A stretch of 64,000 nt of DNA from Arctopsyche grandis (Eukaryota > Arthropoda > Insecta > Trichoptera > Hydropsychidae). The stretch's first letter is position 1; each line of letters begins with the position of its first letter. This document shows positions 3,649-28,722 of this stretch, piece after piece. The translations under genes and the position numbers were made by a program. The notes beneath the pieces are model-generated. The model did not search any database and was not told the DNA's origin. It worked only from the letters and a program-made list of their open reading frames with translations. Location of the stretch: NCBI RefSeq assembly GCF_051622035.1, contig NC_135365.1, forward strand, positions 3,772,501-3,836,500, in the 5' to 3' direction.

Positions 3649-6600
3649 ATGGCATCTGGTAGCAACATTGTTCCCGAAAAATGTTCAGAATATCTATTTC
3701 CGCTGTCCATGGAAATGTCACTAGACGAAAGATTATCGAATTTTGTTAAATATTTTGTAATCGAACTGGAATCAACGTTGCAGTTTCATTTTGATATTTT
3801 AGAGGGTATTAATTCCACAGAGGGAAAAATTCCACAATCCCTTAGTAGTGAAATGGGACTTAAAGAAATAGAAAAAGTGGTTAAACCTTTTCAAATCCCC
3901 CTGCTAAAGCCAATTGAGGTTATTGAGAAAAACATATCTTTCGAGTATTACCGAATAGTCTACAGCTTCCAAGAATCAAAAGAAAGAGGAAGGCAACTGT
4001 TTGTGGACATCGCCATTGACGTCTTTGCAAGTTTCGAATTTCAATTTGCCGGCATCACTTCTAAGAGAGGAGATAAAAAGGCGATTCAAAGAGTGGCGAG
4101 GGATGCAGCACAACGATTCTTAAACGCATTCAAAAGTAAAGAAGAGTCTAATAGAGAGAGAATATTAAATAAATTTGAAAAACTAAGGATTCCATTAAAA
4201 AAAAAAAAAAAACCTAAATTACCTGTTGCAAAATTCGGCTACGAAATGAACGCTCTAAATGTAGTAAATGGGAAATATTTCAATTCCAAATTCATTCCTG
4301 ATAAAATTTGGAAACCTGGTTTTGACATTTCATTCAAATGTAGAAAACTTCACGTAGAATGTAAGAACGAAGTAATTCACGATTGGAATACATCAGATCT
4401 TTTCGTAAAAGCTGGTATCGCAAAAAAAAAAAAAGATTCGGATGAATATGATCTGTATATCACGAAAGAATCAAATTGCGAAAAATACGGCTTTCGGCTT
4501 CCTTTGCCTGGTGAAAATTTAAAAAAGTACATTCCTTATAATTTAATTACAAAAACTTGCATGCATCCACAGATTTTAAAAAGTAGAGACTTCTATGAAT
4601 CAAAACGAGAGATATTATTAAAATTAATTAATGACAATGGCGAAATTTCACTCAATTGCAGATGTTTGGATTTGGTGGAAGAAATGAGGATTGAAATTGC
4701 CCAAATTAAAAATAAACTTCAAGAAAATCAAGATACAAGTTTGAAGGACATTTATAGTGATATTCAGACCAAGAATTATAATGATATTCAGAAAGAAATC
4801 ATAGAAATAAAGAGACGCAGTGAGTCAATAATAACTAATTTCGAAAAACCATTTGAACAAGACAATGAACGATTTTTATTCCGCGTGAGGAATCCTACCA
4901 CATCATTTGAGGGAAGAAAAAATGAATTGAAAGAATTACACGAAGCTCTTATCAAGGAAACAAAGGGTGTGATTTCAAAAACAGTCTCAATCGTTGGTCT
5001 GGGTGGGATTGGGAAGACCGAATTAGCCAATCAATACATGGAAAAATACAAGGAATTTTATAATAATATTGTATTCATCAATGCGGAAAATAGTGAGACT
5101 GTACTGGAATCGTTTAAGACGCTGGCGGCTGAAATTGGAATGAAGTTGATCTCAAATGACGTAAAAGAACAAGACATAGCCGATGTTGTAAAAGATATTT
5201 ACAGAAATCTAATCAAACGTGGAAATACAATTGTGGTTTTTGATAATGTTGAAAAATACAAGCAAATAAAAAATTTTATTTTCGAAAACAATTCCAAATA
5301 CAATAATCACGTATGCACGTTGATCACGTCCAGATGTAAATTGTGGGACGTAGGAGATATGGGCGAGATTAAAGTGATTGAGTTGAATTTATTCACAGAA
5401 GATGAAGCTATGAAGTATTTAATAAAACTTTTAATAAACGAAGATGAAGATGATCTGAAATCATTGATATCTTTATTGCAAAGCCTTCCGTTGGGGCTCA
5501 AACAAGCTGTCGGGTGTATTAAACAGCAAAATCAAAAAGTTAGCATTAGAAAAAATTGCGAACCCTTTAAAGTTAAAAATTACATTAATTTGTATAAAGG
5601 AAAATGTGAAGATGTACTACGGAAGGGACTTGGTGAAGTTGACGATTTGTATGAACAAACAATAGCGACTACATGGAGAATTACGATGCAAAAAATTGAA
5701 GAGAGTGGCGAATGTGGTATATTGGCTTTTTCGGTATTAAAAATCATTGCATATCTAGCTCCCGAAGATATTGATATTGATGAGATATTTTTAAAACCAG
5801 AAGAAGATAATGAGAAACTATATGAAGCTGTTGAATTACTCCATAATTACAGTATGATAAACATTGAAAAAGGGATAGTAAATGTGCATCGACTGGTTCA
5901 GAAAGCTATTCAAATATATTTAATCGAGACGAATGAAAATGAAAATATTCTGTGTGAAGCTTTAGAGCTGTTAAAATGTTGTTATTTTAAAGAGCATATC
6001 ATGAGTGTATGGGAACATTCTTCTGATTACAAGGAAATTGTCGTAAATAATTATAATGATTCCAAGTATGGTTCATCGGAATTGTCTATTATTGATCTAT
6101 TTATAGCCTATTGTAATGATACGACTGCGATCAAAAAATTATTAAAACACCTTTTTTGTAATTACAATGCTTTAATGCACCTTGCCTGTAGTTACGGCAA
6201 TTATGAAATGTTTATTTTTTTTATTGAAGAAGGTGCTGATTTCGATTATAAAAATAGTTGGAATAAAACATCGTTACACTGGGCTGCAAAGGGGGGTAAT
6301 GTTAAAATTCTGAAATGGCTTATCAATAATGGTTTGGATGTGAATTTGACTGACAAAGACGGTGACACACCACTATTCATTGCTGCATCGAACGATAATC
6401 CTGAAACATTTAAGTATTTGATGACATCACATGCCAATCCAAATGCAAGAAACGCAAGAGAAGAATCAGTACTTCACCATCTCGCAAGAAATGATGCTGT
6501 GGAGGGATTCGAATCGCTTCTGAGGGCGATAGTGGATCTAACAAATATTCAAGATATATATGGTCGCTCGCCATTACATTGGGCTGTAATATATGACAGT

Positions 6601-7383
6601 GTGAGGATTCTAAATTTGCTAGTTGATAAAGGTCTTGATGTCAATATGTCTGACAAAAATGGTGACACACCATTCCTTTGTGCTGCTGAATACAATAGAA
6701 CTGAAGCATTTAAACTTTTTTTGAAATCGGGAGCACATCTTAATGCGAAAAACTCAAGAGGAGAAACAGTACTCAACCATCTCATACGAAATGCTGCTGT
6801 TGAAGAATTTGAATTGACTCTGAATCAGGGAGCCGATCCCGCAACTCTAGATAAATATAATCGCTCACTATTACACCATGCTGCAATATATGGCGAAATT
6901 AGTATTCTGCGAATTCTAATCAATAAAAATCTTGATGTAAATATGACAGACAAAGAAGGTGACACACCACTCCACTATGCTGCTAAGTATAATGAAATTG
7001 AAGCAATAAAGCTTTTGTTGAGTTCGGGAGCACGTCCAAACAGAACAAATGCAAATGGTGAAACAGTGCTATATGCTGTCGTATTAAATGATGCTTTGGA
7101 TACATTTGAATTGCTTCTGAGAAATGGGGCTAATTTCAATGTTCGAGATAAATATGATCGCTCGCTATTACACTATGCTGCAATGTATGGAAAGCTTAGA
7201 ACTCTGCAAATACTAATCGATAAAAAGCTTGATGTAAATATGACTGACGAAGAAGGTAACACACCACTCCACTATGCTGTTAAGTATAATATAATTGAAG
7301 CAAGAGAGCTTTTGTTGAAATCAGGGGAATTCCCGAATACAACCAACTCAAAAAGAGAACAAGTATTCCACCATTTCGCATAA
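3649..7383 (+). CDS. NB-ARC (STAND) ATPase with C-terminal ankyrin repeats, NLR-like, C-terminally truncated
   Basis: A 1244-residue protein from one uninterrupted exon. Order of parts: an unrecognised, largely helical N-terminal domain (about 1-165); a Cys/His segment (about 215-320) with C-x3-H-x2-C and later T-C-M-H-P; a coiled linker; NB-ARC with P-loop VGLGGIGKTEL (about 448-458), Walker B IVVFDNVE (about 528-535), sensor TLITSR (about 555-560), SLPLGLKQAVG (about 612-622) and an MHD-position VHRLVQ (about 746); then ankyrin repeats from about 840 to the end. NB-ARC proteins are nucleotide-driven switches and ankyrins usually bind protein partners, so a sensor or signalling role is inferred. 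The start follows a shared 5'-UTR intron and aligns with the paralogue at 24322. The stop lies within a repeat that continues as decayed sequence to 7766, so the gene is a shortened allele or an early pseudogene. No transmembrane segment or signal peptide is seen; a cytoplasmic location is inferred. Confidence 0.85.
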   Translation: MASGSNIVPEKCSEYLFPLSMEMSLDERLSNFVKYFVIELESTLQFHFDILEGINSTEGKIPQSLSSEMGLKEIEKVVKPFQIPLLKPIEVIEKNISFEYYRIVYSFQESKERGRQLFVDIAIDVFASFEFQFAGITSKRGDKKAIQRVARDAAQRFLNAFKSKEESNRERILNKFEKLRIPLKKKKKPKLPVAKFGYEMNALNVVNGKYFNSKFIPDKIWKPGFDISFKCRKLHVECKNEVIHDWNTSDLFVKAGIAKKKKDSDEYDLYITKESNCEKYGFRLPLPGENLKKYIPYNLITKTCMHPQILKSRDFYESKREILLKLINDNGEISLNCRCLDLVEEMRIEIAQIKNKLQENQDTSLKDIYSDIQTKNYNDIQKEIIEIKRRSESIITNFEKPFEQDNERFLFRVRNPTTSFEGRKNELKELHEALIKETKGVISKTVSIVGLGGIGKTELANQYMEKYKEFYNNIVFINAENSETVLESFKTLAAEIGMKLISNDVKEQDIADVVKDIYRNLIKRGNTIVVFDNVEKYKQIKNFIFENNSKYNNHVCTLITSRCKLWDVGDMGEIKVIELNLFTEDEAMKYLIKLLINEDEDDLKSLISLLQSLPLGLKQAVGCIKQQNQKVSIRKNCEPFKVKNYINLYKGKCEDVLRKGLGEVDDLYEQTIATTWRITMQKIEESGECGILAFSVLKIIAYLAPEDIDIDEIFLKPEEDNEKLYEAVELLHNYSMINIEKGIVNVHRLVQKAIQIYLIETNENENILCEALELLKCCYFKEHIMSVWEHSSDYKEIVVNNYNDSKYGSSELSIIDLFIAYCNDTTAIKKLLKHLFCNYNALMHLACSYGNYEMFIFFIEEGADFDYKNSWNKTSLHWAAKGGNVKILKWLINNGLDVNLTDKDGDTPLFIAASNDNPETFKYLMTSHANPNARNAREESVLHHLARNDAVEGFESLLRAIVDLTNIQDIYGRSPLHWAVIYDSVRILNLLVDKGLDVNMSDKNGDTPFLCAAEYNRTEAFKLFLKSGAHLNAKNSRGETVLNHLIRNAAVEEFELTLNQGADPATLDKYNRSLLHHAAIYGEISILRILINKNLDVNMTDKEGDTPLHYAAKYNEIEAIKLLLSSGARPNRTNANGETVLYAVVLNDALDTFELLLRNGANFNVRDKYDRSLLHYAAMYGKLRTLQILIDKKLDVNMTDEEGNTPLHYAVKYNIIEARELLLKSGEFPNTTNSKREQVFHHFA

Positions 7384-7766
7384 AATGATGGTATGAAGGA
7401 ATTCAATAATTGCTTCTGAATGAGGGAGCCGATCCTTAAATACGAGATAAACGTGATCGCTTACCATAACGTTATGATGCAGTGAGTGGTAGTGTTTATA
7501 TTTTGGAACTGCTTATTTATAAAGGTCTAGATGTAAAAATGATTGATAAAGACGGTAAAACACCATTTCAATTGGCCGTCTCTTCTGCTAAATTTGAGGC
7601 AGTAAAATTTCTACTTAAGAACAATACCAATCCAAAAATTGACTCTTCACAAAGATATACTTTTATAGATATAGCCGCTTATGGATTTGACCTCAATATC
7701 TTTAAATTTTTCATAATATTGAGCTTCCTTGAACATCCTTATATCTTTCTAAATATCCATTTATAA
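7384..7766 (+). pseudogene. Decayed ankyrin continuation of the first NB-ARC gene
   Basis: Directly after the TAA at 7381-7383 the sequence still matches the family's ankyrin repeats, but with further stops and a frame change. The clearest part (7482-7690) reads as two ankyrin units with LDVKMIDKDGKTPF. It resembles the unit order of the fragment at 19428-19600. A poly(A) signal AATAAA sits at 7767-7772 and could now end the shortened transcript. Confidence 0.75.
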
Positions 7767-7772
7767 AATAAA

Positions 7773-8229
7773 GTTAAAAATCGTTCAGAGTATTTAACAA
7801 TGATAAATAGTGAATGTGCAAGTGTTAATAATGGAAACTGACTTTGGTTTTGAAACATATAAAAAAAATGCAGACCTACATATGCAAGTTTATACATACG
7901 TAGATTGTTTTGTTCAAAAAAAAAGCGAATCGTAAGTAAAAAATCATTTTGAAAATGGAGTGCTAATTAATTGAACTTTAATTTTGAGCGTATTCACTTT
8001 TTGTTGAGTGAACATTATTATAAAAATAATTGAATGTAATAATGTGCACGAAAAACAAATTATCCAACTTTAGTTTAACATTAAATTAATTTAATGTATC
8101 ATTTTTAATTTTAAAATTTGTTTATTTTTTTCTTGATTTGTTAACAATTTTTAAAATGTTTTTTATCTTTTTTTTTATTATTTATGTATTCTTTCTTTTC
8201 ACCTGAATTATTATTTTTTTGTTAAAATG
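7773..8229. other. AT-rich non-coding DNA between ankyrin pieces
   Basis: No gene or clear repeat seen apart from A/T runs. Confidence 0.4.
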
Positions 8230-8312
8230 TTTGGCCATACTGTCGTTTTGGGCAACTGTAAAGATACTGTGGCAAAAAAATCTTTTAAAATAAAATAAAA
8301 TAAATTATTCCA
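8230..8312 (+). mobile_element. 3' tail of a LINE ending in TAAAA repeats
   Basis: A GGGCAAC...CTGTGG segment followed by a run of AAAATAAAATAAAAT. It matches the end of the better preserved LINE fragment at 32855-32915. Only the tail is present, as expected of a 5'-truncated insertion. Confidence 0.5.
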
Positions 8313-8639
8313 ACATTTAACAAATATATTGCACAAGGGAAAATTATTATCAATGCAATAAATTTTTTTACACTATAAAATCACTAAATTAAAGTATCGT
8401 CAGTATTTCTTTTTCCCATGTCTGTATTTTTTTTCTACTAAAATTATTTTTTGTGATATATTATTTATACCTTGCTCATTTTTATTTGTTAAAAAAGGAC
8501 CGAAAATGTTACTTACCAGAAAATAAATTCTAAATATTGCAATCAAACATTTTTCTTGTGATTTTATTATTTATTCAATCCTTTATTTATTTAATAAAAT
8601 ACCTCATTTAATTTCAGTCCATAATCAACGTTCCCTCTA

Positions 8640-9180
8640 ATTTTTACTTTATCTATGTATGTACGTAGTAACAATAGATGAAGTTTTGTGATCATGCGAA
8701 AATTCGAACTCGAGATTTTGACTGATTCGAACTCAGAATCGATTACTGATCACGTTTTTATGATCTAGAAAAAATGTGTGTTTGTCTGTGTGTCTGTGTG
8801 TGTCTGTGTATTTTTTGAACACCGTTAGTCCTATCGAACTGAAACTTAGTATCGGTTACTGAAATTGTTATCGACACGACGTAAATTTTTTTCAAATTCT
8901 TAAGTTGACTTCCAGTTATAGGTGTCAGTTATAGGTGTCAGGTACCTCCCCTTATAGGTGTCCTCTTTTTTTTAAGTTTTCGAATTCAATTTTCTACCAA
9001 ACTACTAACTGAATCGGACTGAATTTTTTTTACATGTATGTACTAGAAATAATAATTTTTATAATTTTATATTTTTTAAATATTTTTATCTGAACCGGAA
9101 GTAGTACTTTTTAGTTACTCTAGAGAATCGAGGTTTTTTTTATGTTTTTCTCAAAAGCCTTTTGGTTTATTTTTTTATTG
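8640..9180. repeat. GT-rich tract plus a piece of the GGAAGT repeat family
   Basis: A TGTGTCTG-type tract at 8771-8815 is followed by sequence that, from about 8990, parallels positions 1-170 (including the GAACCGGAAGTAGTAC core). The block starting with ACGTAGTAACAATAGA at about 8664 also recurs near 15400 and in the 18.1 and 19.0 kb inverted repeat. Non-coding. Confidence 0.5.
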
Positions 9181-9689
9181 TTTGTGCGGATAATCATCGC
9201 ATCTGAACAGTAAATTTTAGAAGAAAAAAATTGTGGAAATAAATACCATACCTACATACTCACTTACTTTGCATTGATAAATGGATTCGCCATATTTTCA
9301 TGCAGCAAAATAAAAACACTTCAGTCAACCAATTTTTTGCATAATTTCAAAAACAGCACTTATTCATTTGTCTCATCGAAAATACGAGGTAAAAACTTAT
9401 GAACTATTTTTTGAAAAATGCTACAATACCCACATTTAACACACATAACATTCAGTTAATTAGTTAATCCATAAGAAAAATTACCGTAAGCCGGTTTCCA
9501 TTATGTTTTGGTTTTTTGGAACCCCTTCCACATACATACATACATACATACTATGAACATATATGCAAATGATTTTTATTTAGAAAATGTCACGTGGATA
9601 CATATTTATGTATGCATATCCTTTCCTTTCCATCATTTCAAAAGATGCAAGAACAATATCAATTTCTTAACTTGTTTTCCTCCTTTATT

Positions 9690-10038
9690 AGTTGGAAAAA
9701 TATAGAGTGAAAAAAGAAAAAGTTATAGGCGTTTGAACAATTAAAATCTGACACCGTGAGATGGTGACGAAAAGGGATATAAAATAAGAAGAGGCTTAAA
9801 CGAACAAACTGGACGTACAGTCTGAACGATCTATTCGGACAATGCAGTATTATCAAACGTGTCTATTACGATTTTTTTTCACCATCGTAATGGTGGACGT
9901 CGTTTCCACTTTTTTCATTTTCACGTTTGTTCATATTTATGAACAAACCGAGCACAATGGCAATGTATGAAAACGATCGGATAAGAACCCAAACTTCATC
10001 ACACGACAAAATCATTTCTGAACTAAGAAGAGGTTTGT
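9690..10038 (-). mobile_element. Non-autonomous transposon piece (TTATCCGATCGTTTTC family)
   Basis: Shares, in reverse orientation, the block containing the GATCGGATAAGA and CACCATCGTAATGGTGGA segments with copies near 18830-18960, 30000-30130 and 57100-57407. The 57.1 kb copy shows terminal inverted repeats ACATACCTC/GAGGTATGT. This copy ends directly against the ankyrin remnant at 10040, so it marks the break in the first NB-ARC locus. Confidence 0.5.
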
Positions 10039-10039
10039 A

Positions 10040-10365
10040 ATAAAAAAAAGCTGGAACATGGCACCGATCCCCGCAACTTGGATAAAGCAGGACACTCGTT
10101 ACTGCACCTGGCCGCCGTGCACTTTCGATACCAGGCTGTTAATTATATTATCAGAAACGCAGAGGGCATTGACGTGAATGGCCGAGATGTCAAGGGCAAA
10201 ACCCCTCTGCATTTGGCAACCAAGTGTGGAAAAGTCTCCATCGTTGGTCTTCTCGTCCGAAACGGGGGCGACCTAGCGCCACGAGCAAAAGCGGAAATAA
10301 GACTTGGCAACTAAATTTAACCGTGCCAAGATCATGGACTTCTTAAATTTAGGCCTTAAAATTGA
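10040..10365 (+). pseudogene. 3'-end ankyrin fragment of the NB-ARC-ankyrin family
   Basis: Encodes the last ankyrin repeats of the family (reading through DKAGHSLLHLAAVHFRYQ and DVKGKTPLHLATKCG) and closely matches the 3' end of the gene at 24322 (about 28425-28715). A frame break near 10290 destroys the last 20 or so codons. No start or promoter belongs to it. It most likely represents the original 3' end of the first gene, separated from 7766 by ~2.3 kb of repeat DNA. Confidence 0.8.
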
Positions 10366-10399
10366 TTGATATATTTTTAACTGTGTGTTTTGTTTTCTT

Positions 10400-10475
10400 A
10401 TTATTGGTCTAATCGTCCCGAATGAAGGCAGCACTAACCCCATGGGCAAAAGTGGAAACACGCTTCGAATTTAAT
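10400..10475 (+). pseudogene. Short duplicate of the last ankyrin repeat
   Basis: A ~70-base echo of the terminal repeat (LIVPNEGSTNPMGKSGNTL-like reading). A similar echo lies behind the second gene at 28835-28915, followed in both places by related A/T-rich sequence with TATGTTTNATTTTATT. The shared tail shows the two loci derive from one duplicated unit. Confidence 0.55.
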
Positions 10476-10599
10476 TGTTTTAGTAAATATTTGTATGTTT
10501 TATTTTATTTGCATATTTTAATTCTTTGATATTTTGTTGTTTGTAATTATTTATAGAAAATTTCATTTTTATATTCCATAAATTATCGATCAACTTCTT

Positions 10600-10792
10600 A
10601 ATTCAGTCGTGTCAAAGTCGTGGACTTCTTCGATTCGTTCTTGTGAGGTGATTTGAATACGTCATTTTGATGTACATATTTTTATATTACTTTCAATCAA
10701 ATGGATAAATATGATTTTAACGATTTTTTTTCTTTTTATTTGATTACAGCCACTCGATAATCTCAGCGTTGAAATTTCTTCACCATTCTAAT
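10600..10792 (+). pseudogene. Terminal splice unit of the NB-ARC-ankyrin family (donor, intron, last exon)
   Basis: Begins with GTCAAAGTCGTGGACTTCTT (end of the last ankyrin exon), then a GTGATTTGAATACGTC donor region and a TTTGATTACAG acceptor at about 10750, followed by CCACTCGATAATCTCAGCG. The same intron and last exon occur at 20380-20501 and 22078-22160, where they encode a short tail reading about LDNLN-EISAPN. This tail is absent from the gene at 24322, which stops just before the donor. Confidence 0.6.
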
Positions 10793-10799
10793 TCTACAT

Positions 10800-11460: not shown

Positions 11461-11464
11461 TATA

Positions 11465-12233: not shown

Positions 12234-14659
12234 TCAAATAATGGAATCATATGGAATGATATGTGCAACTGCGTTACTTCTCCATCTGCTAAGACTTGTT
12301 GAGGCTTTCCAAGATTTGCTTGTTTCGTCGTATTCCCAAACATCTTCGATAAATCCACCTAAAAATCAAAACAACAAATTAATTCCACAAGGCATGTAAA
12401 TTCAAATTAAATTATATAAAAACTCACCCATGCTAAGTAGTTTGTTTTGGAAACAGCAGAGACTGATTCCTTTTGCAGGTTTTGGTAGTTTGGTGAATGC
12501 TGTCCACAGATTTGCAATCGGATCGTAATACTCCACACTGTCTAAAATAGTACCATTTAGCTCGTTCCACCCACCAACGACAAAAAGTTTCCCTTTGAAT
12601 TCGGCGCTCTAAAATGGTGAAATCAAAATTGAGTTAATTTTATTTTGGAGAGTTTTCTATTATTTGCGAGAGTTGTCAATAGAACTAATTGATATTCACC
12701 GAATGGCGTTGTCTTGCCTGAATCATCTGAGCACGGTAAGTCCAAGAATTGGTCTCCACTGAATACATCTGCACTTTATTCGTTATTATATGTGTATTTT
12801 CAAATGAAACCCCACCTGTGACAAATATTTTGTCGTTGACAACAGAAACACTATGAAAAAAAACAGACACCAACAATGGAGCGATGATCTCCCAATCCCC
12901 AGTATTGCTGTTCCACCTAATCGAATTCAATAAGCATTAACTTCTCTTTCAATCGATCTGATTAAATGATTGCAATTGTATCACCTTTCCACTGAAGATA
13001 AAATGCCACTATTATAACCACCAATGGCATAGACATCTGTGGACGAATCGCGACGAAGTGTCACTGCTGAGAACCTATGACGAGCTTGATTTAAAGGTTT
13101 CAATGGATATTTCCTACCGCTTTTCAAATCAATGTATTCCACCTGAAAACAAACTAATTTGTTATATTCCGATTTCTCTAACCAGGTACTTCACAACACT
13201 GGAAAACGTTACTGAAGTCGCTGATTGTAATGCAGAATTCTTTCCGCCGATGGTAACGATCCAATCTCCTACGAGGACAGACGCAAAATCAGTTTTATTA
13301 ACTCCAATATCTTTGGATAGAGTCCAACTTTTCATTAGTCCGTCAAATATATCGATGGTATTTGCCTCCTGAAAATACGAAATGCAATAAAATAATTAAT
13401 TTACAATCCAATCAATATATTATACTTGTAATATAAAACTCACATCTATATTATGCCCCCCAACCAGTACTATTTTTTGTTCCTTTTTTCTACGAGGAGT
13501 GTCCTCCTGAAAACACAAAATGTAATAAAATAATTAATTTACAATCCAATCAATATATTCTACTTGTGATATAAAACTCACATCTATATGATGCCCCCCA
13601 ACCAGTGCTATTTTTTTTTCTTTTTTTCTACGAGGGGTGTCTCTTTGAATGGAAGATTTATCATCCTTGTCTAAAATTGCTTGACTAATAGTGGTCATAC
13701 ACTCTGCACACAAAAGACAGAACGTCATTACTTCGCTGACGAGAAACTGAAAATATAATGTATTATTTGAATGATTTTTATTAATAAACTGTAACGTTCA
13801 TTTAATTTAAAATACCTTCATCGAAAGCAAGGATAGCCTCACGGATGTCATCAGCTGTGCCAAGTATTTTTTACGGTTTGCATCGTCACTATTTATCCAC
13901 AATGTCACAGCATTGAATACATATTCTTCGGAAGGCACGATCAAATAGTCCGATTTCAAGATTTCGATCACATTGAAGGCTGGCAGATTGAGAAAATCTT
14001 GAGTTTTGTGCAGCTAAAACAGAAATGGAATTGAAAAATATTAAAGTGACATATTTTTTTATTTAATCAATACTCACCGTCTCGAAATTGTCCAAAGTCA
14101 AATCCATTGCCTTTTTTATTAATTCGGAATCTCCCGATATTTTCAAAACGTCCAGACAGTTTGAAAGATCGACTGTTTTAAATTGCTTTGGAATTTTCAC
14201 TTCGAGTCGGTTGGCTAGTTCCATTAATTTTTCGAAGTGATTTTCGTCAATACCTAAAATTATATTTCAGATTATTATATTTGAAGACGAAAATAATTGA
14301 TTACTTTAGATGTTTATGAACTCGTACTTATTTCTCCAGTGTAACAATACTTCAGGATTGCTTCGATAACTTCGAAGTCAAAATCTGACAAGATGTCTTC
14401 CACTTCACCTTCGTTTGTCCCGAAGAATTCGCTGCAGGCCGTTAAAACGATCAAGTGCGCATATAATCTGTAATTATGAAAAAGTACCTATAGCTAAACT
14501 GACAACAATTTGGATTTTAAATATTTTTGGATTCGAATTAAGATACTTTCGGTCTCGAACAATAAATCCGGTGTCGTAACTCTTATCTCGTGTCATGGCA
14601 TCATACAAATATGCTACACGTTTTGCAGCATAATCGGACTTCGGCTTCTTTACGAACAT
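12234..14659 (-). CDS. BTB-BACK-kelch (KLHL-type) protein, ten exons plus a duplicated mini-exon; 2-bp frameshift
   Basis: Kelch-like proteins are usually substrate adaptors for Cullin-3 ubiquitin ligases: BTB binds the cullin, the kelch propeller binds the target. Exons in coding order (all -): 14547-14659, 14328-14467, 14078-14253, 13816-14013, 13582-13746, optional 13444-13506, 13195-13370, 12985-13142, 12700-12916, 12428-12608, 12234-12358. All introns are GT-AG and phases agree. BTB is in exons 1-2 (shortened at its N-terminus), BACK in exons 3-5, and kelch blades with GG..E-Y/W patterns follow (VGGHHID, TIGGKNS, AIGGYNS, VTGGVS, VVGGWNE, SMGGF). Exon 13195-13370 has an extra AG pair near 13319-13322 that shifts the frame and gives a stop about 20 codons later. 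Without it the total is a clean 570 codons including the stop. The start is the first ATG after a 74-bp 5' intron (14688-14761). So this is a recent pseudogene, a polymorphism or a sequencing error. Confidence 0.85.
13371..13643 (-). repeat. Tandem duplication creating a 63-bp kelch-gene mini-exon
   Basis: Segment 13371-13506 and segment 13507-13643 are near-identical, covering an intron and the end of exon 5. The copy has its own acceptor (13507-13508) and donor (13439-13443), leaving a 21-codon exon at 13444-13506 that reads EDTPRRKKEQKIVLVGGHN then ID. It is phase 0 at both ends, so it can be included or skipped without changing frame. Confidence 0.75.
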
Positions 14660-14761
14660 CTTGTTTGTGATTTTCTCTTAGTTTCCTCTTGAAAAAAAAG
14701 TTTAAAATTAAACATCATATGGAAGAACTATAGGTGCTTAACAGGATAAAGTTAGACTTAC

Positions 14762-18941: not shown

Positions 18942-19061
18942 AAACGTAAAGGAGGTAAGTAAAAACGGATCATTCATCAATCCCGAGTTCAAAATTTCTA
19001 TTGTTACTACGTACATATATAAAATAAAAACGTAAAGTTCCATTTTAAACTTTCAAGTCAA
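18942..19061. repeat. Right arm of the 120-bp inverted repeat
   Basis: Exact reverse complement of 18116-18235. Its end abuts the first recognisable base of the ankyrin fragment at about 19057-19062, so the element and the fragment share a boundary. Confidence 0.85.
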
Positions 19062-20501
19062 ATACGGTGACACGCCACTCCTCTGTGCTGCCATGACATA
19101 TAATAGAATTGAAACATGTGATTCATTCTTTGAATTGGGAGCATATCGTAATAGAGCAGAAGCACTAAAGCTTTTGTTGGAATCGGGAGCTAATCCAAAG
19201 GCAATAAACGCAAGAGGTAAAACAGTACTCTATCATCTCGTGAATAACGATGCTGTGGAAGACTTCAAATTGCTTCTTAAAGAAGGAATCAATCCCAAAA
19301 TTACAGATAAAAATAATCGGTCGCTATTACACCAGGCTGCAATATTTGATAATGTTATCATTCTGCAATTGCTTATCGATAGTGGTCTTGATGTCAATAT
19401 GACTGACAAATACGGTGACACACCACTTCTTTTGGCTGCCTCTTCTGGGAAATTTGAGGCAATAAAATACCTACTTGAGAACGATGCTGATTCGAAAAAC
19501 GTCTCAAAACTAGGAGAGACCTTAATACAAAAAGCTGCTCATAGATGTGATCTCAATGCCTTTAAATTTATCTTGGAATTGGGTTTCGATCTAACAGCTG
19601 TTGATTTAATGGGAAATTCTTTGTTGCATTCAGCTGTACATGGGAGAAATGCAGATATCATTGAGTTTTTGATAGAAAAATAAATCCTTCCAAATACTGC
19701 TAATACATTTGGATGCACTCCACTACATGCTATTTCTTCAAGCAGCCAGTTCGTCACACCCCATATAGTTAAATTACTAATTAAAATGGGCGCTAACCCA
19801 AATGCAATGAGCAAATCGAACTGCACGCCTCTGCACTTCGCATCAATCGGAAATAATTTTACAGCAGCAACTGTATTGATTGAAAAAGGTGCTAAAATCA
19901 ATATCCGTAATAAATTAGGCCGATCTGCTTTACACTACGCTTCATCAAAATGCCATTGGAAAATTATGCGACTTCTTCTGCAAAATGCGGCTGAAGTTAA
20001 CGTGTTTGATTCTAAAGGACGAACACCACTACATCATCTTTCACGTAACGGTAAAATTGAAGATGTGAAACGATTGCTGAAATATGATGCCGATCCTTGC
20101 AACTTAGATAAATCAGGCCTCTCACTGCTGCATCTGGCCGCCGTGCACTTCAGATACCAGGCTGTTGCTTATGTTATCAAAAATGTAGGAGGCATTGACG
20201 TGAATGGCCGAGATGTTAAAGGCAAATCTCCCTGCATTTTGCAGCCAAGTGTGGAAGAGTATCCATTGTTGGCCTTCTTGTGCGAAATGGAGGCGACACT
20301 ATCGCCATGGACAAAAACGGAAGCACGCCTTTAGATTTAGCAAATAAATTTAACCGTGACAAAGTTATAGACTTTTTGGGAGGTGAGTTTAATACGTCAT
20401 TAAGATTTTCTTTGCGTCAAATTGATTTTTGATTTTGATTAATTTATTTTCTATTTACAGCCCTCGATAATCTAAATACTGAAGAATCTGCACCAAACTA
20501 A
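19057..20501 (+). pseudogene. 5'-truncated ankyrin-only copy of the NB-ARC-ankyrin family
   Basis: Starts in mid-repeat (tacggtgacac) and carries about 12 ankyrin repeats, ending in the family's terminal intron and last exon (acceptor about 20460, last codons to 20501). The N-terminal domain and NB-ARC are absent. Two lesions are seen: an in-frame TAA at 19681-19683 and a one-base loss near 20230 (three C's where relatives have four). The second open part (19786-20230) is 85-90% like 28126-28560 by eye. It has no promoter of its own, so it is probably a pseudogene; expression from an upstream promoter cannot be excluded. Confidence 0.8.
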
Positions 20502-20509
20502 TTCTTCAT

Positions 20510-20740: not shown

Positions 20741-20741
20741 T

Positions 20742-21125
20742 AGCTGAACCTGGCATGCGTTGCAATGCCAAAATAGCCCATTCAATTCCCGTTCCCATTC
20801 TCGTTCCTGTTCCCATTTGACGGGAAAACGCAGGCAGCGAACACATTTGAAATTATTCAATTATTTATTTATTTTACCCTAAAAACATTTGAAATTATTG
20901 CGTTGCAATGCCATTCATTCCCGTTTTCCCGTTTTTCCCGTTTCCGTTCCTGTTTTTCCACGAATAAAGTAGATGTTTTTCCGATGCGTGAGCAGACCAC
21001 ATATTCCGGTTATTTTCATAAACTGCTTTGCAGTAAAAGAGTTTCCAGTCTTGCATCCCGTTGTTCGTCTGTTTCTTTCGTGCTTGAGGTGTAAATTGAC
21101 CAATCGCTTTTCGTTTGGGTGGCAT
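20742..21125 (-). mobile_element. Helitron-like fragment (N-terminus of Rep/helicase protein)
   Basis: On the minus strand a frame opens MPPKRKAIGQFTPQARKK, then after a frame change continues ETDEQRDARLETLL. Basic MPPKRK starts followed by ETxExxxARLE repeats resemble the N-terminal part of Helitron proteins in animals; this is from memory and moderate. The adjacent CTGGCATGCGTTGCAATGCC segment recurs at 58660-58685 and may be an element end. No Rep or helicase motifs remain. Confidence 0.4.
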
Positions 21126-21167
21126 AATTAATTGAATGTTTGAATTGGTATTGTAAATATTCCTTTG

Positions 21168-22160
21168 TTTTCAATATGTCTGACGAATACGGTGACACAC
21201 CTCTCCTCTGTGCTGTGAAGAATAATAGAAATGAAGCATTAAAGTATTTGTTAAAATCGGGAGCACATCTGAATACAAAAAACCTAATCGGAAAAACAGT
21301 ATCATTTCGTAGAAAAACGTGCCGTGAAGGAATTAAAGCTGCTTCTGAGTGAGGGAGTCGATTCCAATATTAGAGATAATAATAATCAATCGCCATTACA
21401 TTCGGCTGCAAAGAGTAGTTGTGTTGAAATTCTGCAATTGCTAATAGATAAAGTTCTTGATGTCAATATGGTTGACAAATTCGGTGACACACCACTTTTC
21501 TGTGCTGGTAAGAATAAAAAAATTGAAGCATTAAAGTATTTATTGAAAGAGCCCATCCAAATATAATAAATCCAATAGGGGAAACACTACTACATCATTT
21601 CGCAGAATTTCATGCTGTGGAGGGATTCAAATTGCTTCTGAGTGAAGAAGCTGTTCCCAATATTCGAGATAAAAATGATCAATCGCCATTACATTCGGCT
21701 GCAAAGAGTGGTAGTGTTGAAATTCTGCAATTGTTATTCAATTGTAGGTCAATTTCAAAATATTAAACTCTTACTGGAACATGGTGCCGATCCTCGCAAC
21801 TTGGATAAAGCGGGTCACTCGCTGCTGCATTTAGCCGCCATTCACTTCAGATACCAGGATATTCTGTATGTTATCAAAAACGTAGGAGGCATTGACGTAA
21901 ATGATCAAGATGTTAAGGGAAAAACTCCCCTGCATTTTGCAGCTGAGTGTGGAAGAGTCTATTGTTTGTCTTCTTGTGCGAAATAGAAGTGACATTAGCG
22001 CCACGGACAAGAGCGGAAGCACGCCTTTGGATTTGGCAACTAAATTTAACCGTATCAAGGTTATGGACTTTTTGGGAGGTGATTTATTTGTGATATTCAT
22101 TTTTTTAATTTTCTATTTACAGCCCCTCGATAATCTAAATGCTGAAATTTCTGCACCAAA
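21168..22160 (+). pseudogene. Second ankyrin-only fragment with several frameshifts
   Basis: Starts at CAATATGTCTGACGAATACGG (mid-repeat) and runs through about six ankyrin units to the terminal intron (donor about 22079, acceptor about 22121) and last exon. At least three frame changes or stops are visible (near 21310-21350, 21550-21570 and 21740-21760), and several repeats are missing between 21745 and 21760, where the sequence jumps to the final three repeats. Clearly non-functional as one protein. Confidence 0.8.
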
Positions 22161-22389
22161 TGAATTATTTATACGTTTTAAAAGGAACAATAACGTTGTC
22201 TAACATTATTCGCAGATATGAAGCTGTAGTGTGGAAATGTTTCTTTGATTTTAAAATAATTATTTTTTAATGTTCAAAAATACATTTATATACCTATACA
22301 TGTGTATATATAGGTATGTGTGTGTTGTGTTTATATATAGATTATATCTTATCTAAAGTTGATATGTCTTCGATCGTGTCAGAAATATT

Positions 22390-22985
22390 TTATATAATCT
22401 GGCGCTACTCAGGGGTCTACTTTAGGACCCCTATTACTTACCTGATAGCTTTACCAAAGAGTTATTTAAATCATCTCATATTTGCTTATCACTTTTTATC
22501 CTAAACTTGCCATTCACAACCACATAAAGATGTTTATTTTCGTCAACTTTCTCGATCTCCTCGTCGATTTTTCTTGAGTTATGTATGACTATTCCCTAAT
22601 CCGTTGTCTTCTCGTTTGATTTTCAAATCGCTAGTGTGAAGCCAGCTAGAGTATAATGCTATTGTGTGGAATCTACATATGTATGTATGTATATTGAAAA
22701 GAGTAGGGTTATTATCCATATATCTATCCCACTCCTTTCTTTTGGGAATAATTCCCACAAACTTGGGAGAATATTCTCATAAATTTGTTTTGCTTTCCAG
22801 TTTCTACGTGAACAGGTGTCATGTCCTTCCTTGCTGGGAAAGTTGGGACTTTCATGTCTCTATAAATGAAATCGTCACTACCGTGCCTGAATGTGATTCT
22901 TTCAACCCCAGCAATCGAAGGTTATCAGAGATTATTTTTACTTATGGATTTGATAAACAAACATCCATAATCTTATCAACTGAAA
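22390..22985 (+). mobile_element. LINE reverse transcriptase remnant
   Basis: Reads ATQGSTLGPLLL at about 22409-22444, then LPKSYLNHLIFA (22464-22495), matching RT blocks QGSxLGPLLF and FADD of jockey-like LINEs. Further on (22630-22670) SQLEYNAIVW matches the C-terminal thumb region. Stops and frame changes throughout, so it is dead. Confidence 0.65.
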
Positions 22986-24000
22986 AGTAAATAAGAAAGG
23001 GTCAAAATAACGTTTTTCATCGACGATAAATTTCAATTTAGTTACTCCAGTTTTTCTTTTGAAGTAGATCATTCAGTGGTGTTACTAATGTAATAAGGCT
23101 TTTAATTGAGTTTTTAAATGTAGTTTTTAAAATAATTACAAAATCATGGATTAAGTGGAATACATAAAAATTAATTAAATAAATACATATTTACATACAA
23201 TTAAGTGGTATAGGGTAAATAAAATCCTTACTCTTGTAAATATTATATTAATCAACATACGATGTAATTAAAAACATTAACGATTACGTATGTAATTAAA
23301 AGCATTAATAATAGAATTGTAATAAAAATATCATTGAGGTTGTGACAGTACATATATAAATATTAAGGATTAAAAATCAACATAGTGAGAGTTATATAAA
23401 ATTTTATTTCCAAATAAAAAGTGCACGAAGTCATCTGCCTGGCTCTCCTGAAGAAGAAATATTTAAATTGCAAAATTATGACAAAGGTGAATACTTCAGA
23501 ATATTTCTAATAATAATTTAAATTTGAATCAAGTAAAATTCGGTGGCCGTATATGTTCCATAGAAAGATTACAATTTCTAACATATTATAATAATCTATT
23601 ATGATACGTGTGGAATGATTACCAATCTTAAATGTATATATGTAAATTCGTACATGCATATAATAATATGGGCTGAAATTCTTTGCAGTTAGATAAATCT
23701 AGCCGTTTTTTAGCCAACTGTTGATCATTTATGAAGAATGCTCTAACTAAGGTGGCTCAACACCGTGCATGATAACGATTTTTAAAAAAGGGGAAAGCTG
23801 CGAAATAATAATTACATATAATCATCTATTGTATGCCCTAGTTCTCGAGCTCTTTTTTTATAAATTAAGTTAAAAACTCTTTGCAGCTGGGTAACATCGC
23901 TCTATCGGAAATGCAAGAATGCGATATGATAATTATCCATTCTAATCAGTTTAATGTGAGCTTTGGATCACTAAAAAGCGTGAAATAAATAAAATGTAAT
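22986..24000. other. AT-rich intergenic DNA upstream of the second NB-ARC gene
   Basis: No gene or identifiable element. Confidence 0.45.
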
Positions 24001-24011
24001 AAAAAAAATTT

Positions 24012-24047
24012 ACTTTTAACCAATAAAACATTTCAAATATTTCAGCA
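24012..24047 (+). promoter_or_regulatory. Candidate core promoter / start site of the second NB-ARC-ankyrin gene
   Basis: CAATAAAACA (about 24021-24030) precedes TCAGCA (24042-24047) by about 20 bases; the following TCTAAACGAA matches the first gene. Same caveat: it might be a splice acceptor. Confidence 0.4.
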
Positions 24048-24135
24048 ATCTAAACGAACTGAATTCCTCTCAACTTCAAAAGGTCAACTTAAGGTTTCAA
24101 AAGTTTCAAGAATCCTTATCAGCGTTCACTAGATG

Positions 24136-24224
24136 GTACGTATTTTTAATGAATACCTTAAGAATTAATGAATAAAACATGTCTTTGAAGGCTGTAAACT
24201 AATCGCGAACTTTTATTTCCATAG
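24136..24224 (+). other. 5'-UTR intron of the second NB-ARC-ankyrin gene
   Basis: GTACGT donor and TTTCCATAG acceptor, 89 bp, matching in position the intron of the first gene (3445-3541). Confidence 0.6.
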
Positions 24225-24321
24225 CATTGATATGAAAAAATTAAGACACCGTTTGAAAATACACGTCATTTTCGAGATTTTCAGCTGCATTTCTTAATCT
24301 TCAATTGATTTTCTGCAAAAT

Positions 24322-27300
24322 ATGGCATCCAACAGCAGCATTGCTCCCGGAAAGGGTTCTGAAAATCTATTTCTGCTGCCTATGGAATTGTCATTTGGCG
24401 AAAGATTAACGAATTTTGTCCGACATTTTGTAGTTGAATTGGAATCGACGTTACAGTTACATTATGATATTCTAGAGGGTAATATTAACAAATCGGGACT
24501 TATGCCAAAAGTTATTGAAACGACAATAGGATTGTTTGCGAATCACTATATCGGCAAGGGAGCAGATAAAGTAGTTAAACTTTTTCAAACACCCTTGAAA
24601 AAGCCATTTGAGGTTATTGAAAAAAATAAATCTTTGGAGTATTACCAAATAGTCTACAGCTTCCAACAATCAAAAGAAAAAGGAAGGCAACTGTTTGTGG
24701 ACATCGCCATTGACGTATTTGCATGTTTCGAATTTCAATTTGCTGGCATCACTTCTAAGAGAGGAGATCAAAAGGCGATTCAAAGAGTAGCGAGGGATGC
24801 AGCACAACGATTCTTAAACGCGTTCAAAAGTAAAGAGGAGCCTAATAGATATAGTTCAATTTTTAATAAATTTGAAAAAGGATGGATTAAATTTAGAGAA
24901 TTAATCACACCTAAATTGCCTGTTGAAAAAATCGGCTACGAAATGAACGCCCTAAAAGCAGTAGCGGGAAGATCTAAGCCAAAATCGGAATTAATTCCTG
25001 ATGAAATTTGGAAACCTGGTTTTGATATATCTTTCAAATGTATTAAGTGCCATGCACAATGTCAAAACAAAATAATAAGGGATTGGAATACATGCCATTT
25101 GTTCGAAAAGGTTGGAGTCGCAGAAAAAAGCATATCTTCGGATGAATACAAAGTGTATTCCACAAGTAAATCTGATTGTGACAAATACGGCTATCGGCTT
25201 CCTTTTCCAGATGAAAAGTTAAATGAAAGCAATGTCTCTAAAATGTGTGAAAATACTTGCATGCATCCAGAAGTTTTGAAAAGTAGTGAATTTTACAAAT
25301 CAAAACGAGAAATAGCATTCAAATTAATTAATGATGATGACCAAGTTAGAATTCAGCGGAGAATTTTAATATTGGCTGAAGAAATTAAGACAGATTTTGT
25401 ACAATTCAAAGATACACATAAAAATGAAAACCGAGATCTATTGATGACAATAGACACATTTAATGCCGAATTGACGAAAATCATTACCAGACATCATAAT
25501 GATATTCTGAAACAATTCACAACGGCAGAAGCACACCGTAACTTAATAGCAATACAAAACAAAGCGCTTCTTCAACTAAATAAAAGGGAAATCGTATCAC
25601 AAATGACAGAAGTATTCGCATCACAATTCAAAGATTTGAAAGAAACATTTAGAAAAAAAACTGTAAAGATTGAACGAGTTTTATTCCGCGTGAAGAGTCC
25701 TGCAATATCATTTGAGGGAAGAATAAAAGAATTGGGAAAACTACACCAAGCATTGGGAAACAAAATAACCGCTGTGATTTCACAGACAGCCTCAATCGTT
25801 GGTCTGGGTGGGATTGGGAAAACGGAATTAGCGAACAAATACATTGAAGGATATATGGAATATTATCATAATATTGTATTCATCAATGCGGAAAAGAGTG
25901 AAACTATATCGGAGTCGTTTAAGACGTTAGCGAAAAAAATTGGAATTAAGTTGATTTCTAATGACGCAAGAGAACGAGATATAGCAGATGTTGTGGAAGA
26001 TATTTACAGAAATCTTATCAATGGCGGAATCACACTTGTGGTTTTTGATAATGTTGAAGAATACAAAGACATAAAAAGTTTTATTTTCGAAAATAATTCC
26101 AAAAACAGTAATCATGTATGCACGTTGATCACGTCTCGATATAAAATATGGGATATAGGAGATAAGGGCGTTATTAAAGTGATTGAGTTGAATATATTTA
26201 CAGAAGATGAAGCTATGAACTATCTAAGAAAATCCTTAGAAAACGAAAATGACGATGATTTGAAAACATTGATGACTATGTTGGAAAGATTTCCGTTAGG
26301 GCTCAAACAAGCAGTTGGATATATTAAACAGGAAAGTCAAAAATCAAACACTATGAAAAATTGCAAATCCTTCAATGTTCAAGATTACGTTTATTTATAT
26401 AAAGAGAAATGGAAAGAAGTATTCCAAAAGGGATTTGGTATAGATGACGATTTGTATGAAAAAACAATAACCACTACATCGAGAGTCACGATGCAAAAAA
26501 TTGTAGAGTTCGGTGAATGTGGGAAATTAGCTTTATCGGTATTAAATATCATGGCATATCTGGCTTCCGACAACATCGACATTGAGGAAATATTTTCAAA
26601 ACTTGAAGAAGATATTGACAAATTATATGAAGCTGTTTATCTACTTCATGGTTACAGTATGATCAACAATGAAAAGGGGATAGTGAGTGTGCATCGGCTG
26701 GTTCAGAAAGCTATTCAAATATACTTAATCGAGATGAAGGACGAAGAAAATACTCTGAGTGAAGCGTTAAAGCTATTAAAATGTAGCGATTTTGAAGAGC
26801 ATGTGGTGAGTGTATGGGAGCATTCGTCTAATTACCCTCAAATTGTGAAAAGCAATTATAATCATACTGAGTATGGTCCCTTCGAAAAAACTCCAATTGA
26901 ATTATTCATAACTTACCGTTATGATACTGCTGCGATCAGAAGAATATTGAGACATGTTAAATGTGATTTAAATACTTACATGCACATTGCTTGTCAATAT
27001 AGCAATTATGAGGTATTTCGATTTTTGATCGAAAAAGGGGCTGATGTCAATTATAAAAATAGAAACAACGAAGCATCGCTACACCAGGCAGCATTGGGTG
27101 GTAATGTTAAAATCCTACGATTGCTTATAAATAAAGGCTTAGATGTTAATGTGTCTGAAAAACACGGTAATACACCACTCATCTTTGCTACTAATTATAA
27201 CCGAACCGAAGCAATAAAGTTTTTGTTGAAATCAGGAGCCAATCCAAATGCAATAAATTCAAGAGGAAAAACAGTTCTCCATAATCTAGCATTCAATGAC

Positions 27301-28722
27301 GCTGTGGAAGAATTCAATTTTTTTCTCAGCCAGGGAGTCGATCCCAATATTCGAGATAAAAAATATCGCTCGCCTTTACATTTTGCTGCAATGGTTGGTA
27401 GTGTTAATATTCTGCAATTGCTTATCGACAAAGGTTTTGATGTCAATATGGCTGACACATACGGTAGCACACCACTCCTCTATGCTGCTATTTATAATAG
27501 AACTGAAGCATTTAAGTTTTTGTTGAAATCGGGAGCCAATCCAAATACAATAAATGCGAAAGGAAAAACAATATTGTATCAAATTGCAGACAATAATGCT
27601 GTGGAGGAGTTCAAATTGCTTCTGAGTGAAGGACTTGATCCTAATATTCAAGATATAAATGGTCGATCTGCATTACATTGGGGTGCAATTGGTGGTAGTG
27701 TTAACATTCTACAATTGCTGATCGATAAAGGTCTCGATGTCAATATGGTTGACAAAAATGGTGATACACCACTTCACTGTGCTGCTGAGGAAAATGTGAC
27801 TAAATCAATAAGTTTTTTGGTAAAATCAGGAGCCAATCCAAATGCAATGAACTCCAAAGGAAAAACAGTACTCCATAATATCGCATACAATGATGCTGTG
27901 GAGAATTTTAAATTATTGCTGAGTGAAGGAGCTAATCTTTATATTCGAGACAAAAATAATCACTCGGCATTACATTGGGCTGCAATGGGTGGTAGTGTGA
28001 ACATTCTGCAATTGCTAATTGATAAAGGTTTTGATGTCAATATGACTGGTAAAGACGGTGAAACGCCACTCTTCTGTGCTGTTAAGAAAAATAGAGCTGA
28101 AGCATTAAAGTTTTTGCTGAAATCGGGAGCCAATCCAAATGCAATGAGCAAATCGAACTGCACGCCTCTGCACTTCGCATCAGCTGGAAATAATCTAGAA
28201 GCAGCCACTGTATTGATAGAAGAAGGTGCTGAAATCAACACCCGAAACAAATTAGGCCGATCTGCTTTACACTATGCTTCAACAAAATGTCATTCAAAAA
28301 TTATGCGACTTCTACTGGAAAACGGGGCTAAAGTTAACGTTTTTGATTCCAACGGACGAACACCACTACATAATCTTTTATGTAGCGGTAAATTTGAAGA
28401 TTTGAAACTATTGTTGAAATATGACGCCGATCCTCGCAACTTGGATAAAGCAGGTCACTCACTGCTGCATATGGCCGTCGTGCATTTCAAATACCAGGCT
28501 GTTGTTTATGTTATCAGAAACACGGCGGGCATTGACGTGAATGGCCGAGATGTCGAGGACAAAACCCCTCTGCATTTGGCAGCCGAGTATGGAAGAGTGT
28601 CCATTGTTAGTCTTCTCGTCCGAAATGGAGGCGATGTTAGCGCCATGGATAGAAACGGAAATACGCCTTTAGAAGTTGCAAATAAATTTAACCGTGCCAA
28701 AGTCATGAATTTCTTCAATTGA
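24322..28722 (+). CDS. NB-ARC (STAND) ATPase with about 17 ankyrin repeats, NLR-like, apparently intact
   Basis: A 1466-residue protein from a single coding exon. Layout: an unrecognised N-terminal domain (about 1-180) with the best conserved stretch RQLFVDIAIDVFACFEFQFA; a Cys/His segment (about 225-330) with C-x3-H-x2-C and TCMHP; a helical, probably coiled linker (about 340-460); NB-ARC with VGLGGIGKTEL (about 492-502), LVVFDNVE (about 571-578), TLITSR (about 598-603), FPLGLKQAVG (about 657-666) and VHRLVQ (about 789-794); ankyrins from about 886 to the end. The middle ankyrins form a 99-residue super-repeat of three units. NB-ARC modules switch between ADP and ATP forms and oligomerise; a cytoplasmic sensor role is inferred. 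The start is after a conserved 5'-UTR intron. The stop lies a few bases before the conserved donor used by relatives, so this copy lost the short terminal exon. Closest relative is 3649-7383. It is not Apaf-1-like: there is no CARD and no WD40. Confidence 0.88.
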   Translation: MASNSSIAPGKGSENLFLLPMELSFGERLTNFVRHFVVELESTLQLHYDILEGNINKSGLMPKVIETTIGLFANHYIGKGADKVVKLFQTPLKKPFEVIEKNKSLEYYQIVYSFQQSKEKGRQLFVDIAIDVFACFEFQFAGITSKRGDQKAIQRVARDAAQRFLNAFKSKEEPNRYSSIFNKFEKGWIKFRELITPKLPVEKIGYEMNALKAVAGRSKPKSELIPDEIWKPGFDISFKCIKCHAQCQNKIIRDWNTCHLFEKVGVAEKSISSDEYKVYSTSKSDCDKYGYRLPFPDEKLNESNVSKMCENTCMHPEVLKSSEFYKSKREIAFKLINDDDQVRIQRRILILAEEIKTDFVQFKDTHKNENRDLLMTIDTFNAELTKIITRHHNDILKQFTTAEAHRNLIAIQNKALLQLNKREIVSQMTEVFASQFKDLKETFRKKTVKIERVLFRVKSPAISFEGRIKELGKLHQALGNKITAVISQTASIVGLGGIGKTELANKYIEGYMEYYHNIVFINAEKSETISESFKTLAKKIGIKLISNDARERDIADVVEDIYRNLINGGITLVVFDNVEEYKDIKSFIFENNSKNSNHVCTLITSRYKIWDIGDKGVIKVIELNIFTEDEAMNYLRKSLENENDDDLKTLMTMLERFPLGLKQAVGYIKQESQKSNTMKNCKSFNVQDYVYLYKEKWKEVFQKGFGIDDDLYEKTITTTSRVTMQKIVEFGECGKLALSVLNIMAYLASDNIDIEEIFSKLEEDIDKLYEAVYLLHGYSMINNEKGIVSVHRLVQKAIQIYLIEMKDEENTLSEALKLLKCSDFEEHVVSVWEHSSNYPQIVKSNYNHTEYGPFEKTPIELFITYRYDTAAIRRILRHVKCDLNTYMHIACQYSNYEVFRFLIEKGADVNYKNRNNEASLHQAALGGNVKILRLLINKGLDVNVSEKHGNTPLIFATNYNRTEAIKFLLKSGANPNAINSRGKTVLHNLAFNDAVEEFNFFLSQGVDPNIRDKKYRSPLHFAAMVGSVNILQLLIDKGFDVNMADTYGSTPLLYAAIYNRTEAFKFLLKSGANPNTINAKGKTILYQIADNNAVEEFKLLLSEGLDPNIQDINGRSALHWGAIGGSVNILQLLIDKGLDVNMVDKNGDTPLHCAAEENVTKSISFLVKSGANPNAMNSKGKTVLHNIAYNDAVENFKLLLSEGANLYIRDKNNHSALHWAAMGGSVNILQLLIDKGFDVNMTGKDGETPLFCAVKKNRAEALKFLLKSGANPNAMSKSNCTPLHFASAGNNLEAATVLIEEGAEINTRNKLGRSALHYASTKCHSKIMRLLLENGAKVNVFDSNGRTPLHNLLCSGKFEDLKLLLKYDADPRNLDKAGHSLLHMAVVHFKYQAVVYVIRNTAGIDVNGRDVEDKTPLHLAAEYGRVSIVSLLVRNGGDVSAMDRNGNTPLEVANKFNRAKVMNFFN

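Follow-up and report, generated by a model that had tools for sequence, protein, structure and literature searches.

What is a long gene that couples an NB-ARC ATPase to an ankyrin array doing in a caddisfly, and where did it come from? To our knowledge, insects are usually described as nearly devoid of nucleotide-binding leucine-rich repeat (NLR) type proteins. The window, by which we mean the whole 64,000-nucleotide stretch analyzed here, spans positions 3772501–3836500 of contig C11 (30,775,590 bases) of Arctopsyche grandis, a hydropsychid, net-spinning caddisfly, and holds two such paralogues, each beginning with an N-terminal region hereafter called the N-domain. We give about an even chance to the reading that these are caddisfly STAND (signal transduction ATPases with numerous domains), NLR-like proteins, shared horizontally with, and probably derived from, symbionts, which have expanded to an NLR-like sensor repertoire. 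The paralogues are laid out as follows.

24322–28722, + strand: intact gene of 1466 amino acids in a single unbroken frame (N-domain, long helices, NB-ARC with helical region, ankyrin array)
24379–25257, + strand: N-domain core, residues 20–312, common to Wolbachia and Rickettsiella proteins; predicted helical bundle with a small beta part
25285–25659, + strand: predicted long helices, residues 322–446, a coiled-coil-like linker
25684–26961, + strand: NB-ARC ATPase and the region after it, residues 455–880, placed by Pfam and motifs
26968–28704, + strand: ankyrin array, with Pfam Ank matches starting at residue 883, partly in 297-bp tandem units of three repeats
3649–7383, + strand: truncated paralogue with N-domain, NB-ARC and partial ankyrin array, its frame ended by a stop
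7384–7745, + strand: decayed continuation of the truncated paralogue's ankyrin array, with broken similarity

The original prediction described two long paralogues in which NB-ARC precedes an ankyrin array, and Pfam agrees: NB-ARC is matched at E 3.3e-11 in open reading frame (ORF) 3649–7383 and at 1.9e-8 in ORF 24322–28722 (43.4 and 34.3 bits, against a curated cut-off of 23.5), with many ankyrin stretches after it in both. Only 24322–28722 is intact, whereas 3649–7383 has 1244 amino acids from its ATG and its stop falls within the ankyrin array. The motifs listed in that prediction (P-loop, Walker B, TLITSR, VHRLVQ) are in both ORFs, as are all five of those named for STAND NTPases, the P-loop, Walker B, sensor TSR, GxP-like and MHD-like motifs (in ORF 24322–28722 GLGGIGKT at residue 494, FDN, LITSR, FPLGL and VHRLVQ). 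By strict patterns, 26 database paralogues keep the P-loop in 25 cases, Walker B in 18, TSR in 20, the GxP-like motif in 21 and HRLVQ in 25. Open frames as long as 1250 and 1474 codons, with complete domain matches, cannot be put down to chance. The best match of ORF 3649–7383 among 157 comparison proteins is 58%, so the database showed no protein identical to it. Against the PDB, the best 60 of 483 matches to the window protein sequence aligned through the ankyrins. Inside the arrays, the 297-bp tandem units (6849–7390 and 27087–28145) are three 33-residue repeats duplicated together, which suggests how such arrays may grow. Paralogues P0003, P0012 and P0013 end in a strongly hydrophobic, transmembrane-like segment (all above 2.3) that could be a membrane anchor; the window proteins are without it.

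The N-terminal region was described as unassignable, and at E 1 Pfam indeed names no domain before residue 420 (ORF 3649–7383) or 460 (ORF 24322–28722). A protein search with residues 1–470 returned the window's own protein and 13 others from Arctopsyche, 14 in all. A profile of these 14 caddisfly N-termini matches the stretch before NB-ARC in the Wolbachia protein P0038 (E 1.6e-26, 120 proteins) and in many others, and the caddisfly and bacterial alignments have the blocks DAxxR, WNTxxLF and YGYR in common. The domain adjoins NB-ARC in both the caddisfly and the Wolbachia and Rickettsiella proteins. An extended profile, applied at E 0.01 to 82 fetched loci (79 out of 208 confirmed stretches, of which 80 were kept, plus three viral contigs), matched eight, L001–L008, from Rickettsiella, a Coxiellaceae bacterium, an uncultured gammaproteobacterium and the Wolbachia of Fragariocoptes; some of these genes also went into the profile, so the result is a survey rather than an independent test. 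The other 74 gave no match at that threshold, and the three viral contigs carry NB-ARC-only loci without the N-domain. A domain new and specific to insects is thus ruled out, since proteins of Wolbachia, Rickettsiella and Coxiellaceae carry it at the corresponding place. The sharing of an N-domain–NB-ARC module between the caddisfly and symbiont-type bacteria is well supported.

AlphaFold2 predicts a helical bundle that comes with a small beta part and is followed by long helices (mean predicted local distance difference test, pLDDT, 75.6 over residues 1–460; for residues 20–312, pLDDT 79.5 and predicted template modeling score 0.79). Foldseek found no PDB or BFVD match to the N-domain fold at E 0.001, and a VIA-align re-check gave nothing usable for the core; the 460-residue model matched structures through its long helices only. 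Neither Pfam nor Foldseek therefore makes the N-terminus a well-known domain. In an unrooted N-domain tree, 23 caddisfly rows split from 27 others (100/99). It should be noted that the bacterial rows include contigs of unproven bacterial origin (such as P0025, P0026, P0039), that P0045, P0053 and P0056 equal L002, L006 and L004 in the N-domain, and that L005 and P0030 were left out as too short.

The family was expected to be small, and the genome (475,669,232 bases in 189 contigs, searched with Pfam NB-ARC at E 0.001) proved otherwise: NB-ARC matches at 73 places, every one above the curated Pfam cut-off. The number of loci is slightly lower, because two matches are neighboring pieces on contig C3 near 22.178 Mb, and some of the 73 may fall outside the N-domain family. 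Three places have a stop inside; 62 lie in a stop-free frame of at least 800 amino acids and 54 in one of at least 1000. They are spread over ten contigs, 23 of them on C11, and nine of the ten contigs, with known size, are chromosome-size at 29.5–42.7 Mb. Clustering is pronounced, with 38 of the 73 within 100 kb of another (random placing: mean 2.2, maximum 10, in 200 placings). The claim of an expanded insect NB-ARC–ankyrin family with an NLR-like layout is upheld.

Among the database matches listed are at least 26 Arctopsyche proteins (the window's own and 25 others). We fetched 30 of the 73 places, one of them the window ORF 3649–7383; eight fetched loci are identical to database Arctopsyche proteins. 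The N-domain profile is in frame in 19 of the 30 (weakly in L098), four have a different N-terminus, and seven (one interrupted by a stop) have neither; ten fetched stretches are short, and a more distant N-terminal exon would escape detection there.

An NB-ARC search placed Wolbachia proteins (31–40% identity) beside caddisfly, springtail, Rickettsiella and other proteins among the best 120 of 260 matches, and a further protein search scored 7983 candidates. The closest named non-caddisfly relatives among the matches listed are Wolbachia proteins, as bacterial contamination or an assembly artefact would predict. That explanation can nevertheless be virtually dismissed given the contig size, a nearby retrotransposon and the leaders: the contigs measure 29.5–42.7 Mb, an insect-type retrotransposon and a kelch fragment lie within the same 64 kb, and identity to Wolbachia in NB-ARC is at most 40%. 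Both window genes have splice-like leaders.

24040–24321, + strand: 5' leader of the intact gene, splice-like TTTCAG|CAATC then G|GTACGTA, kept in close paralogues
3361–3648, + strand: 5' leader of the truncated paralogue, with acceptor-like TTTTTCAG, a possible non-coding exon at 3369–3444, donor-like GTAGGTA and a second acceptor-like TTTCAG ending at 3541

The alignment gives the same order in all five close paralogues: TTTCAG, GGTA[CG]GTA, a second AG, then ATG. Coding sequence is constrained as well. The ratio of nonsynonymous to synonymous substitution (dN/dS) in NB-ARC is 0.10–0.50, with bootstrap upper bounds of 0.15–0.76, in seven of eight pairs (the eighth was not computable), and in the N-domain it is 0.17–0.70 in six pairs, five of them below 1 by bootstrap; dS exceeds 1, near saturation, in L093/L095, L114/L117 and part of L103/L114. 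Purifying selection thus acts on NB-ARC and mostly on the N-domain; together with the splice-like leaders and the chromosome-size contigs, this points to working host genes.

In a NB-ARC tree of 82 rows, all 25 caddisfly rows with the N-domain (N-type) group in one clade (99/97), part of a larger clade of 60 rows (100/100) that also takes in Wolbachia, Rickettsiella, springtail and other rows and leaves 22 further NB-ARC rows outside; outgroup rows above P0085 and short-match rows (such as P0061 and P0062) were left out. With 87 rows, all 41 caddisfly N-type rows again form one clade (99/95), itself within a clade supported at 100/100, and the two window ORFs pair with each other (100/92). For this tree fifteen rows were thinned, and the eight loci equal to database proteins, L092 and L111 (short NB-ARC) were dropped; the 41 rows may be 40 genes, because L108 may equal P0018 (97% over 774 amino acids). 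A joint clade of caddisfly N-type and springtail rows is rejected by the approximately unbiased (AU) test (p 0.0045), so these two lineages are separate.

The four fetched places with a different N-terminus (L091, L102, L104 and L118) represent a second caddisfly NB-ARC type. They group together (100/100) and are placed among Wolbachia and springtail rows (94/91). L091 is collinear over residues 6–1176 of its 1329 with the Wolbachia protein P0028, from the N-terminus through NB-ARC into tetratricopeptide repeats (TPRs), at 32% over 1208 positions. Pfam recognizes both NB-ARC and TPRs in L091, NB-ARC in L102 and TPRs in L104; it names nothing at the second-type N-terminus, which may be nuclease-like ("cap4").

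In STAND proteins the array senses, NB-ARC switches and oligomerizes, and the N-domain acts; by this analogy we assign the same roles here. An N-domain–NB-ARC module may have come from Wolbachia- or Rickettsiella-type bacteria, possibly via prophage WO-type elements, been put under host control and then multiplied to dozens of copies. The ankyrin array would keep ADP-bound NB-ARC closed until it binds an intracellular ligand, be it a symbiont, parasite or viral protein or the host target of one; binding would admit ATP, NB-ARC would oligomerize, and the clustered N-domains with their long helices would be the signaling or killing part. The family may have an immune function. Variable-length arrays on conserved N–NB-ARC halves would fit a receptor repertoire: in L106/L107 and L097/L098 the N-domain and NB-ARC are 88–98% identical and the arrays 62–66% (76 codons aligned for the L097/L098 N-terminus), suggestive only of faster array change, as unequal repeat numbers may misalign. 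Tentatively, and as a doubtful proposition overall, one might go further and see an NLR-type immune repertoire rebuilt from symbiont genes, in which two Wolbachia-type STAND architectures entered and one grew large and clustered, with effector–switch halves that stay conserved and ankyrin sensors that can change, directed at intracellular bacteria or their effectors.

Several results weigh against descent of the family from symbionts and its use as a sensor repertoire, the first of them on origin. A tree that groups the 35 remaining ingroup rows to the exclusion of the caddisfly N-type survives the AU test (p 0.358), and nesting of the caddisfly N-type inside bacterial rows is therefore not forced; a single joint origin of both caddisfly types is only marginally disfavored (p 0.056) and not rejected; the N-domain tree is without a root; and a phage collection contained nothing matching P0038 or the window protein. 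The first of these results would also suit transfer in reverse, by which Wolbachia or phage WO and Rickettsiella captured an old arthropod N-domain–NB-ARC family and made effectors of it, and for one phage WO gene that arthropods also carry, the available part of PMC5062602 favors the arthropod-to-phage direction by parsimony, the opposite being still plausible. We consider this unlikely, since the outgroup rows of the 82-row tree come from bacteria or contigs of unassigned origin (with two fungal proteins in one search), the N-domain occurs in both alpha- and gammaproteobacteria, most caddisfly frames are unbroken, and three protein searches (one limited to the best 120 of 260 matches, with many entries lacking a name) showed no other named insect with the N-domain. 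Overall, a bacteria-to-insect direction is favored but not forced.

The remaining points concern function. A hydrophobic stretch reaching 1.6 occurs in none of the 23 caddisfly N-domains and in nine of the 27 others; because it is weaker in the caddisfly, a membrane action common to all N-domains is not supported. The leader donor pattern is correctly placed in five of 12 loci, the seven more distant loci being without it. One of the six N-domain ratios (L106/L107) has a bound above 1, and the six ankyrin ratios lie between 0.29 and 1.39, the bound exceeding 1 in two of them; misaligned repeats may have inflated the ankyrin divergence. Decay of part of the family is evident from four broken copies in the window, namely the truncated paralogue and three ankyrin-only remnants.

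9916–10453, + strand: ankyrin-only remnant of a family member
18997–20405, + strand: remnant of a family member, made up of C-terminal ankyrin repeats only
21029–22109, + strand: remnant of a family member with ankyrins only, spread over more than one open frame

Truncated and remnant copies, retrotransposons close by and the clustering of the genes are what one would expect if there were no sensor repertoire, but a horizontally shared gene spread by tandem duplication or transposons, with an ordinary cell-death or scaffolding role, or drifting. The long stop-free frames at 62 of 73 places, dN/dS below 1 in all seven computable NB-ARC pairs and, by bootstrap, in five of six N-domain pairs, and a leader conserved in close paralogues argue against this alternative, and we think it improbable.

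Elsewhere in the window, BEL/Pao retrotransposon frames lie at 39243–43487 and 44572–49851 on the − strand, the second confirmed by Pfam, with a gag-like frame (51113–52399, − strand) beside them; these copies (39243–52399) are probably recent, as their sequences are very alike by eye. Tandem arrays of 129 bp (50084–50434 and 52650–53258) adjoin the retrotransposons. A kelch-repeat fragment of another gene (12685–12936, − strand) is adjoined by a 138-bp tandem duplication (13365–13641).

The 73 NB-ARC matches in one caddisfly contradict, for at least one lineage, the near-absence of NLR-type proteins from insects. Among the open-access papers listed by our searches, which did not extend to subscription journals and preprints, none dealt with an N-domain–NB-ARC family in caddisflies or other insects, in keeping with the expectation that it had not already been characterized. 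The novelty is the family's size and an ancestry common with intracellular-bacterial proteins, elsewhere than the original prediction supposed. The shared N-domain suggests that a possible animal immune repertoire arose through exchange with intracellular bacteria; the domain itself, which insect genes and endosymbiont proteins have in common, is structurally unassigned. If our preferred reading of symbiont-derived sensors is true, an insect may have built a large intracellular-sensor family from genes shared with its parasites, and the Arctopsyche family is a testable system for the origin of NLR-like families.

How does the family compare with known systems? According to the accessible part of PMC5062602, the eukaryotic association module of phage WO holds ankyrin, TPR, NACHT or NB-ARC proteins, and genes with eukaryotic-like domains, some shared with arthropods; NB-ARC is mentioned once in that part. 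An ankyrin plus NB-ARC coding sequence lies in the Wolbachia prophage region WOCfeF1 (PMC10438800, in the portion available), and symbiont cif genes include toxin-domain fusions (PMC12445526, likewise). A large host family such as the caddisfly's is not described in the available parts of PMC5062602 and PMC10438800.

The nearest counterpart is P0038, a 2494-residue protein of the Wolbachia of Laodelphax striatellus, whose NB-ARC is of the caddisfly type (40% identity) and is likewise preceded by the N-domain. It has a short ankyrin part in front, a TPR array after NB-ARC and a long tail, whereas the caddisfly protein has only ankyrins after NB-ARC. The tail carries a Latrotoxin_C match below cut-off and matches the phage family phrog_9049 (PHROGs, E 6.7e-256), which fits a prophage link; the window protein gave weak matches only. 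In an anti-phage library the window protein had no match, and P0038 and P0032 had weak, repeat-type ones. The Rickettsiella and Coxiellaceae proteins (P0056, P0059, L001–L004, L006, L007) run N-domain then NB-ARC, as in the caddisfly, but unlike it have extra front regions, protease-like by eye and without a Pfam match, and in P0056 and P0059 Pfam lists neither ankyrins nor TPRs. Parts present in some relatives (OTU-like in P0025, TPR in P0038, a latrotoxin-type tail) are in none of the window proteins, nor in P0056 and P0059.

The springtail Orchesella dallaii (P0041, P0050, P0051) offers another arthropod NB-ARC in the same clade, among Wolbachia proteins; unlike the caddisfly N-type, these NB-ARC–TPR proteins have TPRs by Pfam and the N-domain profile was not found in them, and by their place in the tree they represent a possible separate transfer. 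TPR proteins of the bacterial FxSxx-COOH system (NCBIfam model NF040586) match the NB-ARC region at 147 and 123 bits, below the 300-bit cut-off, and carry TPRs where the caddisfly proteins carry ankyrins.

Apaf-1/Dark is an NB-ARC switch in insect cells, as the caddisfly proteins would be, with CARD and WD40 around its NB-ARC; the window proteins have neither at E 1 in Pfam. They have no leucine-rich repeat (LRR) family at E 1 either, and so fall outside a strict definition of NLR sensors. Animal and plant NLRs share an effector–switch–repeat layout and clustered, expanded genes; compared with them, the caddisfly family has ankyrins for LRRs, an unrecognized N-domain and a module shared with symbionts. 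Judged by domain score and motifs, the window proteins can be placed among the STAND NTPases of the NB-ARC class.

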